64,000 bases of DNA, taken from the NCBI RefSeq assembly GCF_949628265.1, contig NC_088789.1, positions 11,772,886 through 11,836,885 of the forward strand, in the 5' to 3' direction. The notes below the pieces were generated by a model. The model was not told the origin of the DNA, searched no databases, and worked only from the letters and a program-made list of their open reading frames with translations. The stretch is from Cloeon dipterum. Lineage: Eukaryota > Arthropoda > Insecta > Ephemeroptera > Baetidae. The position numbers and the translations under genes are program-made. Positions 35,110 through 56,092 of this stretch are shown piece after piece; position 1 is the first letter of the stretch, and the number at the start of each line of letters is the position of its first letter.

Positions 35110-38100
35110 TCAGGCCACTTTATTGGCCAACAGCAAACAAGATGCCAGGCTGGCCGCAATGAGTGACAGTGATGAAGTGGTCGAAGAAGGTGCCCCATTG
35201 TGGTGGGTCGAGCGTCGGTACAGATTGCGACCATTTAGAGGCTCCACCGGACGGTAGTTTTCCTCTATCTTGCCACTCCTCGATTCCAGACTTTTGAATT
35301 TTTCCACCTGTAGGCGAATCATCAAATGAATAATTTTGTTGTGTCGTTTGACGGAGACATTTAAACATGGGAAATAATCAAAGTTTTAATCAATTATCCC
35401 CCATGCTGATAAAACTCTTATTATACTTAGAAGAGAAAATTGATTAAAACTTGTGTATTTTTCCACATAAATCTCTATTATGGTTTTCCATAACATGAAC
35501 TTCTCACAAAATGAAAAAGATGCATCTCTTTTTATTGCCACAAGTAAACTTCAAACCCGGATAAAGACGTTGCATTGCTTCTTTTACATGCAAAAATCTG
35601 ACGCGGAAAACTTTTTATCATATACCTGCGCAGTAGAAATTGGAACCGTTTTCTCCAAAACGGTCCAGAGAACGCCCTCGTTGCACTCTGGAGTGGTGAG
35701 CGAGCCCCTATACCTGAAAAACTTGTCAATGTCCTCCGGGAAGAGTTCTTCTGCTCTCATCTTGCTGGTCATCTTAAACTCGGCGCCCTCGTCGCTCACC
35801 CTCGCTAAGTGCTCGAGCAGTTTGTCCACGATGCCGTTATCCGCTTCCTCGTTTGACTCCTGCAAGACGTTTGATTTGAATTTATTAGAACGGCCGTTTT
35901 GTTTTTCTGCGGCTATAGTGGCTCACTTCGTAAAACACTCCGAGAACAGCGAGACCGTCTTCCTTGCCAACCGCTGCGCCGAGGCTATCGTATCTTTTAT
36001 GGTTGTAGTGCACAAAGTGCGCTTCCAGCGGGTACCTAAAACATTTTCGTAAATCACAATCAGTGCGGTGTGCCAAAAAACATTTGAAACTCCGTCGTGC
36101 GTGCAACAAGTTTTTTTTTCTTTTTGTTACGGCGAATTGTAAAATGAAAACAACTGGAAAATAAGCCCGCGTGGAGATTGGTGACAGCAGCAGTGCAAAG
36201 CAGCCGGCTGTGGCAATATTTACATTTGCGCACTATGGGTGCTCGCACACACGATTCTTTTGAAGGCGCGAGCCGCTTTTTCAACAGCACGCGTACCGTG
36301 AATTTGTACGGCGGGCACAATAATTCATGTTGTTTGACCTTTTGAACCCTTTTAACGACGTGGTCCATGTGCCACTTAGTGCCGCAGCGCCGAGTGTAAC
36401 AGGTCCGATATTATTTGCAACCAATTTGGGCAATTGCACGCGACTATGAAACGTCATCACTCATGAATTGGACCGTTTAAAATACACAGCTGCCTTGGAG
36501 CAGAGTGCACGAAAATATTGTTTAAACGTAATCCTGGACGATCGCGTCTCTGGCGGGAGTCAAGTGCGCCTTATTAAACCATCATTATACATGGCGCCAC
36601 AAAATTGTCTCTCAAAGGACGCGCTCGGTTGAAATGTATTTTTTAAGTCACAGAAGTATATAAATAATTACTTTAAAATTAAAAATTAACAAATATGGCT
36701 CTACTTCTGCTCTAAAAGCGAAATAATTGAAGAGAAAAAATGATTTAATAATCTATCTACCCATTTTTATGATGAATTGCTGATTTTAATTACAAAATGA
36801 CTTAGCCAGTGAAGGGAAATCCAACAAACAAATAGGGTAACAGTTAACGTATTCGAAATCTCCAATACTCTGTGATGACGTTACAATGACTTTTGGACGC
36901 TTGCTTTGTACAGTACCTGTTTTGAGGCGCACCTGATTTCTTTCGTTCTTAATTTAAATTTTTCACAAGTCTAGAGATGATAGCCAGCAACACATATTTT
37001 AATAACGAAATGCATAATATTTTATGGTTCTTAAAAATATAAAATGGTATGCTCGCAGTCAATACATAATAACGTGAGCGTTTAATTTATTAACTAACGG
37101 CACGTGACAACGACGAATCAATTTTTTGTTTCGGGCGTTCATGCAGACTGCTTGTCATTTTTTCCCATTGTTCACGATTCTCAATAATTTATGCATGGAA
37201 ATATTTAACGTGAGCAGCAAACAGTAACATAACCGACTTTAACTAGCCAAAATTGACTACTCTGAAAAATCCTGTTCTAAACAACAAAAAATCTACAAAA
37301 CTCTGGTTTTTGCACGAAGCTCCCAATAATTTTACTGGAACAATACTTTTACATTAAAATATTATTCCAGCTCTTTAATTTTATGTTCAATGTTATTCTA
37401 TTATTGGATAATATTTGAGATGGAAGATGATGGAATCTATTATAATGTAAAGTCCTAACGTTTTATCATCTGTAGCCCTTCTGGAGTTCTGGAGGACTTA
37501 ATTTGTCTTTGGTGTTGTGGCCAGTATTCCAGTACCCGCCGCTTCAGAGAAACTTAAAAGCTTTTAAGCTAAGCAACGCTGAATTTCTCAGCCACCGCCT
37601 GCGTTAAGTTAGGCTCGCATTTTAATTTGCAAGCACCGCCTCCTTCATTGGCCCTAATTTTAAGCGCACGCGGCAACTTCTGCGGTGTATCCCTAAACGA
37701 GGAGGGCGCTGCGAGTTTTGGGGCCGCGGAAACGAGTAGCTAATTACGCGGTGTGTTTCGTAAGCGGCGTTAAATTTTACACCACGCGCACAAGGGCACG
37801 CAGTAGCTAGCTAGCTAGCTTATACATTCCCTGAGTTGCGCTTTTAATTAAGAAATTAGAGTGCAAATTACGTACCTCCTTCCGTTGAGGGTGTGTTCAG
37901 AACCCCAGTGGAAATGGATTTGCGCCAGGGAGAAGGCGGCTGGCAACCCTCCACCTGCCATTTGCGCCACACACGACTGCTCGAACGTCAGCTTCACTGC
38001 AAAAAAGTTTCGTTCAGCTAACTATACGCGTTATGCGGCCGGCGAAGTGAAATAGTGTTATGCTGCTGTGGCCGCGTTTTGCTCCACGCAGCAGCGAGTA

Positions 38101-52528: not shown

Positions 52529-53579
52529 CAAGAAATAACGCCCAAGTGCAGATTGGGTAAATTGTTTTTAGCAAATGATGATTAATGGTCACGTTCACAT
52601 AATTGTTTTTTTAATTTGTTTGTTCCTGATTTTCTTAACTTTCCCCCAACGTACCTTTTCAATTTATCTGTTAAAAATGAGATTACACAGGTAACATTAT
52701 TTATTGTTTTATGTAAGTTTAGATATTAATATTATGCAATTTGCTTACTTACACAAATAAAGCTCAAAATCACCAACCGTGTGGAAATAATTGTAAAGTA
52801 TTTCACTTAAAAATGCCTTTTGCTTGGTTATTGAATGAATAGTTTATTAAAATATATACTTTTGATTACAATGAAATTGGAATTCAAATTACAGGCAAGA
52901 AAAAATGCGGATCAAATTTATATTGTGATTTAATAAAAGCTATAATAAAATATATTTCTTGTCTTGTGTTATTTTTTGTGAAACCTGGATGCCGCGTATA
53001 CAAGAGCCTTTGGTGTCAAGTTTTAATGCTATTTTTGCCATTATCCTTTCATCACGATTAGTTTTTTTTTAGCTAATAGGTAAATGTAGCAAATTTATGA
53101 GCTCATTGAAAAAAGGAAAAGCGAAGTTTTCCCCTAGACCAACTGTTATCTTGACTTGTCCGGTCTCGCGGCTGAAGAGATTCCATACATTTTTAAATTA
53201 TATTGATGGTGGTGCCACCTAGCTACCACCAATGGTACACGTGACACAATATTATACTAAACACATGCACTGATCACTGATCAGGTGGCAAAGCGACGGC
53301 GAAATTTAACAATTTCTCTGAAGGTAAAATTATTATATGGGTATATATTTTATGTTCATTTATAAATTTAGAGTTTTTTATTTATTTATTATTATTATGA
53401 TGATCCTGGAGGATTCAATAAATTAGAGCGTGAAATAAAATGTGTTAAGTTGATGAAGTTATTATGTAACAGAAATTTATATTCATACAGTAACAGTACA
53501 TTTTTGTTTTACTGTGGCCCTAGCAGCAATCTGGTCGGCCAGAAAAAAGGCTATTTGGATAAGGAAGAATCGAACCAGA
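52529..53579. other. 3' UTR of the antiporter and promoter of CMC2
   Basis: AT-rich. It includes the AATAAA at 52756-52761 and, nearer CMC2, the 15-base near-palindrome CTGATCACTGATCAG at 53270-53284, which may be part of the CMC2/Abitram promoter. No coding exon was seen. Confidence 0.5.
52756..52761 (+). terminator. poly(A) signal AATAAA of the antiporter gene
   Basis: Canonical hexamer 228 bases after the antiporter stop, with no better candidate before it. Confidence 0.5.
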
Positions 53580-53970
53580 ATGCATCCTGACCTTTCGCCT
53601 CACCTTCATACGGATGAGTGCAACAAAGTAATCACAGAACTCCATAACTGTTACGAAGAGGCAAGAATAAAAGCAATTCAATTCAATTTTGTCTCGCATG
53701 TTTTGCAAGGAAATTTCAAAAAATTATTTATCATTTTCAGCATAAAGTTGGAAAGTTCTTCGGCCAGTGCAGCTCGTTATATAAGCAGATGACCGTTTGT
53801 TTAAAGAACGAAGTGAGCTGAAATAATGTGCCCTGTTTAGTTTATATTACTTTTGATTTTTTTTCCAGAGAGAAATCTACAGAAAGAGGAACCAGGTTAA
53901 GGCGCAGGAACGGCAAGAGAGGGTGCTTAAAAACTTGGAAGAGTTAAAAAAGCAGTCAAATTCGACTTAG
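53580..53970 (+). CDS. CMC2: COX assembly mitochondrial protein 2 homolog (three exons)
   Basis: A small twin-CX9C protein of the mitochondrial intermembrane space needed for cytochrome c oxidase biogenesis and imported by the MIA40 relay. Exons: 53580-53660, 53741-53812 and 53869-53970, giving 84 residues. The N-terminus MHPDLSPHLHTDEC is the family hallmark and fixes the start, although the frame stays open upstream. The two CX9C motifs are C14-C24 and, in exon 2, C37-C47. The tail is basic, coiled-coil-like and rich in Arg, Glu and Lys. The first intron must begin with GC: GAAGAG|GCAAGA paired with TTTTCAG, since a phase-0 join there restores the conserved E-E-H-K-V-G-K-F-F-G sequence. The stop is only 12 bases before the Abitram ATG and in the same frame. 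Confidence 0.95.
53661..53740 (+). other. GC-AG intron of CMC2
   Basis: The intron starts GCAAGA after GAAGAG and ends TTTTCAG. No GT donor nearby restores the conserved protein. GC-AG introns are a known minor class spliced by the major spliceosome, usually with a strong AG|GC exon edge as here. Confidence 0.85.
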
Positions 53971-53982
53971 TCTATTTTAAAA

Positions 53983-54540
53983 ATGAGCACCACAGAAGTT
54001 TACATTGCTCCGCCAATTGAGCGCAGTTTTGAGATGGTGGAAAAAATTTTGACAGTGTCAGAACGCTACTACACACCGCGTTATGTCCTCAATGCGAGTG
54101 GAATCGAGGGAGAAGACCTTTGCATCCTCTTTCACTCGAATAAAATCTGCCTGGTGACACTGGCCCCGACACATCCCATAATTACCGAGAAGAAGGAAGT
54201 GGTCAAGTTTAATTTTGAGATTTCCAAGAATGTTGATCGCAGGCAAAACAAGGTTTCAGGCAAAGGCAAAAATGGAGCACAGGTCCTGCAACCAAGCTCT
54301 CCTCTTTGTTTTGTAGAATGTAGTGACGGAAGTAGCTACAGTATTTGCAGTTGCCTCAATGGAAAGCTAATAGAGTTCAACGAGAAAATGATTTCAGACC
54401 CTAACCTCATTGCTCAACGTCCTCAGGCGGAGGGTTACATAGCTATTGTGTTGCCAAACATTGTGAACAGCTGCAAGGCAAAGGAGCAACTCATGACTAA
54501 AGAAGACTATGAGATTGCTCGAAGCATTAAAGTTGATTAG
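53983..54540 (+). CDS. ABITRAM: Abitram (FAM206A/Simiate) homolog, single exon
   Basis: In vertebrates Abitram is a small nuclear and cytoplasmic protein reported to bind actin and to influence transcription and neuronal branching; its insect role is not established. The ORF is intronless and has 185 residues, the usual family length. The family pattern is clear: an N-terminal segment before RYYTPRYV (about 28-35), then LFHSNKICLVTLAPTHP (about 49-65), the central NKVSGKGKNGAQ (about 89-100), PLCFVECSDG (about 107-116), C-x-NGKLIEFNE (about 123-134) and near the end EGYIAIVLP. It follows CMC2 by 12 bases, so it has almost no room for its own promoter and is probably translated from a shared mRNA. 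ATTAAA at 54565 lies 25 bases past the stop. It converges with COQ2, whose stop is 60 bases away. Confidence 0.95.
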   Translation: MSTTEVYIAPPIERSFEMVEKILTVSERYYTPRYVLNASGIEGEDLCILFHSNKICLVTLAPTHPIITEKKEVVKFNFEISKNVDRRQNKVSGKGKNGAQVLQPSSPLCFVECSDGSSYSICSCLNGKLIEFNEKMISDPNLIAQRPQAEGYIAIVLPNIVNSCKAKEQLMTKEDYEIARSIKVD

Positions 54541-54564: not shown

Positions 54565-54579
54565 ATTAAATCTTTTATT
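54565..54579. terminator. interleaved poly(A) signals of Abitram and COQ2
   Basis: ATTAAA (54565-54570) reads on the plus strand 25 bases after the Abitram stop. AATAAA (reverse complement of 54574-54579) reads on the minus strand about 22 bases after the COQ2 stop. The two 3' ends must therefore overlap. Confidence 0.6.
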
Positions 54580-54600: not shown

Positions 54601-56092
54601 TTACTGGAATAACGCGACTTTCTCTTTGGTATCAACTTCCACTGTTACCTTGGGCGTAGTTCTGTTCTTTAAATAATTCCCAAACACGATCCCCAGGAAG
54701 AGCAGCAGACCGACGTAATGGTTAGACACAAATTTTCTGGCGCAGTCGTTTGCCTGGGAAATATCCAAAGTGTAGAGCTGCAAAAAGATCAGAAATGTTA
54801 CCATCAATGTAATTTAATTTGGTTTACCTGGTGCGAGATGTGAGCTGATATGACACCAACCGACAGGAAATATGGCCAAGTTTGATCACAGTTCAGTCCA
54901 GAAAGGATAAGGCTTGAGGACATGGCCAGTGCAAAGCCTGATAGCCACAATTTTGTATTCTCCCCAAACCTTATTGCAGTTGACTTTATGCCCATCAATA
55001 GGTCCTCAGCTTTATCCTAAGTAGAAAAAAACACTGAACATACTAATAGGGCTAAAAATTCAAGACGTACCTGATGGGCATAAATTGTGTCATAAATAAT
55101 TGTCCAGCAGACGCCAGCTGCGTAGAGAGGTAGACAAGCTGACCAGTCACAAGAACCCTGAACTGCAGACCAACCGAGGAGCGCACCCCAGTTGAAGGTC
55201 ATGCCAAGAACCAGCTGTGGCCAGTGAGTAATTCTCTTCATCAAGGGATACACAATGACCAGACCTGAAAGAAAAATTAGAGAAAGTTTTGAGGCTAGGG
55301 CTTTGTTTCTACCTAATGAACTGGCTCCGAGGACAATGCTGTACCAATTAAGTTGCAGCAAGATCGCCAATCCAAGGCCTAACTGCCCAGCCAGAAAGAC
55401 TAGAGCATCCCCTCGAGTCAACTGTCCACTGACGAGCGGTCGATCCTTCGTCCTACTAACCTGGAACATTGTTATGAAGACACATATTACGGAAAATGAT
55501 TTAAATTTTAGCGCAGTATTTACTTTTCCATCTATGTCTTTGTCCCACATGTCATTGATAGTACAGCCTGCGCCTCTCATTATCACAGCTCCAGCACCAA
55601 AGAGGGACAGCAAGGCTATGTCTGGCAAGCAACCTGGGGCTGCACTGCCTGCTATCGCCCAGCCGCATGGCCAAAACAGAAGCCAAGAACCTGAATAAAA
55701 GCATTCTTAAAAATGTTATTTTCATCATCTTAACAATGCATACCAATTGGTCTGTCCAATCGCATGAGCCTCAAGTACGGTTGTATACTCTTAGGGGTGC
55801 TATCGACAAGTTGAGCCGAGCTGATGTATCTCATTTGAATAAATTGCAAGCTGCTAGCTTCTTCTTTCTTCTCATATTTTTGGCAAGACTTGGTATAGGG
55901 GGTAAAGCTTGTTACTTCCAGTGGTCTTCGACGGCACATGCCGCATCTTAACTGGCTGAAAGTCCTGCTGCCAGCCGCAAGGTGAGGAAAATGTAAGAGG
56001 CCCTTTCTAGGACCGAGACTAGGGATAACAAGATTTGATAACAAAGAGTTCTGGTGAGGAACAAAACATCGACGAACGAGGTTGACCAGCAT
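54601..56092 (-). CDS. COQ2: 4-hydroxybenzoate polyprenyltransferase, mitochondrial (six exons)
   Basis: A UbiA-family membrane enzyme that attaches the polyprenyl tail to 4-hydroxybenzoate, an early committed step of ubiquinone synthesis in the mitochondrial inner membrane. Exons, minus strand: 56092-55744, 55690-55524, 55460-55313, 55264-55071, 55016-54828 and 54777-54601. The phases join into 407 residues. A basic, Ser/Arg-rich N-terminus (about 1-90) fits a mitochondrial presequence. The catalytic core begins [15 protein letters not shown] (about 111-125). The first Mg-diphosphate motif is NDMWDKDID (162-170), followed by [10 protein letters not shown]. The second is [13 protein letters not shown] (279-291), split by an intron between Gln and Asp. 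Several hydrophobic helices follow. All catalytic aspartates are present. It diverges from PSMA1 and converges with Abitram. Confidence 0.96.

Follow-up and report, generated by a model that had tools for sequence, protein, structure and literature searches.

In the genome of the mayfly Cloeon dipterum, the open reading frame (ORF) of a mitochondrial assembly factor, CMC2, is followed on the same strand, 12 nucleotides further on, by that of an Abitram-like protein. This raises the question of whether the two proteins are made from a single messenger and, if so, of how ribosomes reach the second start codon. The window in which the pair lies is the whole stretch of 64,000 nucleotides that was analysed (contig NC_088789.1, positions 11,772,886 to 11,836,885 of the forward strand); unless a strand or a locus is given, the coordinates below are positions in this window, on its + strand.

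The sequence and the alignment with Pfam divide CMC2 into three coding exons. Exon 1 (53580–53660) opens with the start codon (53580–53582) and is followed by a GC donor, intron 1 (53661–53740, 80 nt) being of the GC–AG type. Exon 2 (53741–53812) is separated by a GT–AG intron of 56 nt (53813–53868) from the coding part of exon 3 (53869–53970), which terminates in TAG (53968–53970). Once joined, the exons amount to 255 nt, that is, 84 codons and the stop. We also observe that if intron 1 is retained, the CMC2 frame reaches a stop at 53790–53792. The intercistronic gap (TCTATTTTAAAA, 53971–53982) is stop-free and in frame, and leads to the ATG (53983–53985) of an intronless ORF of 185 amino acids (53983–54540), in which a further in-frame ATG is present at 54034. 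When re-derived from the sequence, the 12-nt spacing, the matching frames and the single TAG between the two ORFs came out as an earlier note on this DNA had described them. The same note had stated that there is no room for a promoter or a poly(A) signal between the ORFs, and this is borne out by the length of the gap and by the + strand, where neither AATAAA nor ATTAAA occurs between the AATAAA that starts at the sixth base of intron 1 (53666) and the one at 54139, inside Abitram. The likely poly(A) signal of Abitram would be the ATTAAA located downstream of it (54565–54570).

The product of the joined exons matches the Pfam family Cmc1 (4.1e-13, 49.6 bits for a cut-off of 22) in an almost collinear manner, its residues 1–69 being aligned with positions 1–68 of the profile, and two CX9C motifs can be read from the translation. 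This protein is presumably CMC2, as opposed to CMC1, judging from its length and from its MHPDLSPHLH start; another Cmc1-family exon lies on contig C1. The latter is the one exon that was picked up when the genome was searched with the Pfam Cmc1 profile, which missed the split exons of CMC2, while the search with the protein as a query gave CMC2 as the sole copy in the genome. In the PDB search, no match to CMC2 was found below an E-value of 0.27.

The second ORF is presumably Abitram (Simiate/FAM206A), a name that comes from the earlier note. Its product matches Pfam GCV_H weakly (5.6e-7, 29.9 bits for a cut-off of 22.2) and scores 27.7 bits against NCBIfam gcvH, far below the cut-off of 115.85; a separate and better GCV_H match is found on contig C3. 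Because of the low gcvH score and of the better match elsewhere, and judging from these profiles, the Abitram-like protein is not GcvH, the lipoyl carrier of glycine cleavage, but a protein with a GCV_H-related domain. The PDB search returned GcvH, as a weak match (best E-value 0.0047). According to an excerpt of PMC3859600, Simiate (Abitram) is related to the glycine-cleavage carrier protein and is present in insects, among many groups. Two fly genes were considered as possible counterparts of the pair and rejected: CG11699 is not the fly Abitram, it is TMEM242-like (PMC10312989, excerpt), and the excerpt of PMC4133159 contains no link from CG11699 to Abitram; CG42308 is not the fly CMC2, it is sloth2 (PMC9681215, excerpt). 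Abitram is also the sole copy in its genome, as found by the protein-query search, and no relative was confirmed in the viral and prokaryote contig collections (7 and 44 pattern matches, respectively, and 0 by tblastn), which is expected since it is an animal gene.

Two ORFs thus lie on one strand with no room between them for both a poly(A) signal and a promoter, which is one mark of a dicistronic pair in animals. In the fruit fly, a few percent of the genes are known to be arranged in this way, and CMC2–Abitram is most likely a further example. We consider it probable, from the sequence, that CMC2 and Abitram are carried by one mRNA with two ORFs. That their closeness exceeds what chance would give is suggested by a gap too short to house separate signals and by the control loci described below. 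None of the matches listed in our literature search names the CMC2–Abitram pair; FlyBase, subscription papers and supplements were outside the scope of that search.

As controls, we looked in this genome at five loci taken from the list of conserved fly uORFs and dicistronic genes of Hayden and Bosco 2008 (PMC2276209, excerpt); the choice was not random, each locus having at least one ORF with a searchable Pfam family. The tight spacing is kept in three of the five, namely MOCS2A/MOCS2B, the series from CMC4 to PIG-M, and Pcc1/PIG-P; the statement that these loci give single mRNAs is based on fly records, and here they are known from their ORF geometry alone.

At the MOCS2 locus (L008, 1121–2054, + strand), the gap would be of 1 nt if a predicted intron of 76 nt is spliced: the small-subunit ORF then ends with Gly-Gly-TAA and the ATG of the large subunit comes one base later. 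If this intron is not spliced, the first ORF stops at 1424–1426, some 56 nt before the large-subunit ATG. The first product matches ThiS (3.1e-13) and the second MoaE (1.4e-39). This dicistronic geometry is like that of CMC2–Abitram, but the MOCS2 products are the subunits of one enzyme.

The PIG-M locus (L009, − strand, 490–2298 along that strand; the PIG-M match is at 18788137–18788862 of contig C4) contains, in this order, CMC4, an ORF of 70 amino acids, an ORF of 64 amino acids with two CX9C motifs, and PIG-M, the junctions being a 4-nt ATGA overlap (−4), +1 nt and +3 nt. The PIG-M ORF matches PF05007 (2.2e-62), and CMC4, whose exons were joined by eye, gives 7.7e-13. The 70-residue ORF has no Pfam match; the 64-residue ORF, which we take to be NDUFAF8-like, scores below threshold against both CHCH (24.9 bits for a cut-off of 27.2) and CX9C (23.3 for 26.4). 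From its ORFs, this is likely a tetracistronic gene resembling CG9865 of Drosophila, in which three uORFs, two of them CX9C, precede a mannosyltransferase. CG9865 has a CX9C upstream cistron in common with CMC2–Abitram; its apparent counterpart here is unlike the pair in that it has four ORFs, the last of which is PIG-M.

In the case of Pcc1/PIG-P (fly CG14550; L012, 1441–2205, + strand), identified by matches of 5.6e-16 for Pcc1 (exons joined by eye) and 4.2e-23 for PIG-P, the two ORFs share 14 nt, read in different frames. A ribosome that terminates at the Pcc1 stop is already past the PIG-P ATG and cannot reinitiate there by moving forward; the geometry speaks rather for leaky scanning, for a backward step or for a transcript of its own as the way in which PIG-P would be produced. 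Regarding the other two loci, a shallow pattern search detected no fitting CX9C ORF upstream of PPCDC (CG30290), and no kinase was seen by eye, in a shallow look at the ORFs of at least 35 amino acids, in the 3.1-kb locus chosen for BolA/mevalonate kinase.

Given the control loci with tight spacing, a shared CMC2–Abitram mRNA is the expected reading, not an oddity. The dicistronic unit put forward in the earlier note is therefore retained as the best reading, with three tightly spaced loci beside it and the shared mRNA as its putative part. The view, expressed in the same note, that it is functionally unexpected to join these two proteins is weakened by the CX9C upstream ORFs of the fly, in CG9865 (two), CG30290 and CG9288 (Hayden and Bosco 2008, PMC2276209, excerpt), and by the two CX9C ORFs upstream of PIG-M in the mayfly genome. 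If the shared mRNA is real, the poorly understood Abitram would be expressed together with a mitochondrial assembly factor, which gives a clue to its role that can be tested, and the pattern in which CX9C proteins are upstream cistrons would be strengthened. Gene predictors may merge the pair, or drop either CMC2 or Abitram.

Provided that the mRNA is shared, leaky scanning is somewhat favoured as the main route to Abitram; as for the joint reading, that of a shared mRNA from which Abitram is made mainly by leaky scanning, we would give it an even chance. A single mature mRNA would start upstream of 53580, undergo two splices in CMC2 and be cleaved after the ATTAAA at 54565. CMC2 would be made from the first AUG, while ribosomes scanning past this AUG and past two others in a weak context would initiate at AAAAAUG (53983) and produce Abitram, each protein retaining its own function and destination. 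There are only two AUGs between the CMC2 start and Abitram: the first is out of frame and opens an ORF of 5 codons (ACGGAUGA), the other is in frame (GCAGAUGA), and exon 3 of CMC2 and the gap contain no ATG in any frame of the + strand up to 53983. By the usual rules, the contexts of both inner AUGs are weak; the context of the Abitram start is A-rich (UUUUAAAAAUGA). The CMC2 start has a context (CCAGAAUGC) that departs only a little from the fly consensus, so that leakage may be low. CMC2 shows no significant depletion of AUGs (P = 0.29): it has 3, the start codon among them, where 4.18 would be expected from the codon usage of CMC2 and Abitram alone.

The Drosophila pair sloth1/sloth2 is like CMC2–Abitram in that the first ORF is short (79 amino acids) and mitochondrial, the gap is of 5 nt and the second ORF has an A-rich start (CAAAATG); in this pair, leaky scanning is backed by a reporter test (PMC9681215, excerpt). 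The same excerpt presents sloth1 and sloth2 as proposed paralogues which act together, whereas CMC2 and Abitram are members of separate families.

A second, more doubtful mechanism is that Abitram is produced from the dicistronic mRNA mainly by reinitiation after the termination of CMC2, with a restart at 53983 or, 63 nt past the CMC2 stop, at the in-frame ATG that comes second (54034). The stop and the start are indeed very close, CMC2 is fairly short with its 84 codons, and the geometry of the PIG-M locus, with its ATGA overlap and its gap of 1 nt, would suit a coupled termination and restart. However, a ribosome takes time to regain initiator tRNA, and 12 nt leave little of it. Reinitiation is also better after shorter uORFs, with a sharp drop above 34 codons in plant protoplasts; this limit may not hold for native mRNAs, and insects perhaps reinitiate more efficiently (PMC2276209, excerpt).

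We regard it as rather improbable that two kinds of transcripts account for the two proteins. Abitram mRNAs would then begin inside CMC2, in intron 1, exon 2 or exon 3, or would skip exons 1 and 2 by splicing of a 5′ UTR donor to the acceptor of exon 3, so that the Abitram AUG is the first, while CMC2 mRNAs would end inside or after Abitram. Such Abitram mRNAs would have a clean leader, since exon 3 and the gap are devoid of ATG before 53983, and in fly dicistronic loci (n = 159) monocistronic forms of both genes are reported for 45 and of one gene for 69 (PMC4528330, excerpt). Within CMC2 there are one TATA-like (53778) and one Inr-like match (53731), which together with the AATAAA at 54139 inside Abitram would leave room for separate, overlapping transcripts; Abitram also contains one CCAAT (54013). 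However, the TATA-like, Inr-like and CCAAT matches at this locus are few and count as candidate motifs; besides, a transcript starting from 53778 would be expected to fall near the donor of intron 2 (53812).

Readthrough of the TAG, which would give a CMC2–SILK–Abitram fusion, is very improbable: nothing speaks for it but the open, in-frame gap, two frames coincide by chance with a probability of 1/3, UAG-U is not known to be a strong readthrough context, and the control junctions are mostly out of frame (−4, +1, +1 and the 14-nt overlap), only that of +3 being in frame. Spliced-leader trans-splicing, with the TAG used as acceptor AG, is judged unlikely in view of the weak pyrimidine tract. 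Among the three mechanisms offered in the earlier note, reinitiation is kept as possible and the internal promoter as less probable, while readthrough has nothing beyond the shared frame; the GC–AG intron 1, leaky scanning (which we rank first) and exon skipping are additions to that note.

It may be that CG9288 is the fly version of the CMC2–Abitram pair, and we mention it as a lead. This gene has a CX9C uORF of 80 amino acids, a length like that of CMC2, which has been traced to Aedes, and it is listed among the uORFs with conserved peptides, with the unlabelled values 0.16 and 0.17; its main ORF is labelled 'Pyruvate kinase' (InterPro), at odds with Abitram (PMC2276209, excerpt). CG42375 and CG9288 are named in one 37-kb candidate region (PMC4751556, excerpt). 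A tentative proposal is that the pair corresponds to CG9288 and is a dicistron of ancient arthropod origin, in which leaky scanning would set the ratio of a COX assembly factor to a nuclear/actin protein, and that Abitram would have an unrecognised mitochondrial link.

Upstream of the pair, a CCAAT (53229) and a CACGTG (53238) point to a plausible promoter region, and the candidate promoter and leader of CMC2 would extend over 53229–53324, with a predicted start site and intron. The TATA-like matches at 53342 and 53361 and the Inr-like match at 53356 are nearer to CMC2 and would suit another start site. The sequence would allow a 5′ UTR intron, from roughly 53325 to 53525, with a donor after 53324 and an acceptor at about 53525; any transcript begun at the TATA-like sites 53342/53361 would carry several upstream ATGs, from 53397 to 53464. 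The fragment of an upstream gene on the + strand has no Pfam match. Over the whole window, no Rfam match at the gathering score and no tRNA were found, and a scan for bacterial-type promoters and terminators was set aside as meaningless for animal DNA. An exact 30-base run of TTAGG is absent from the 190 Mb of this genome, in a search which may skip simple repeats; the lineage may lack this telomere repeat, the chromosome ends may be missing, or the result may stem from the way in which the search handles simple repeats. Downstream, the convergent neighbour (54601–56092, − strand, extent taken from its ORFs) belongs to the UbiA family (6.1e-36 for one exon, Pfam) and is presumably COQ2-like; an AATAAA is present on the − strand at 54579, in addition to the + strand ATTAAA at 54565. 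Last, an ORF at 35584–35922 on the − strand resembles what we take to be part of an alpha carbonic anhydrase.
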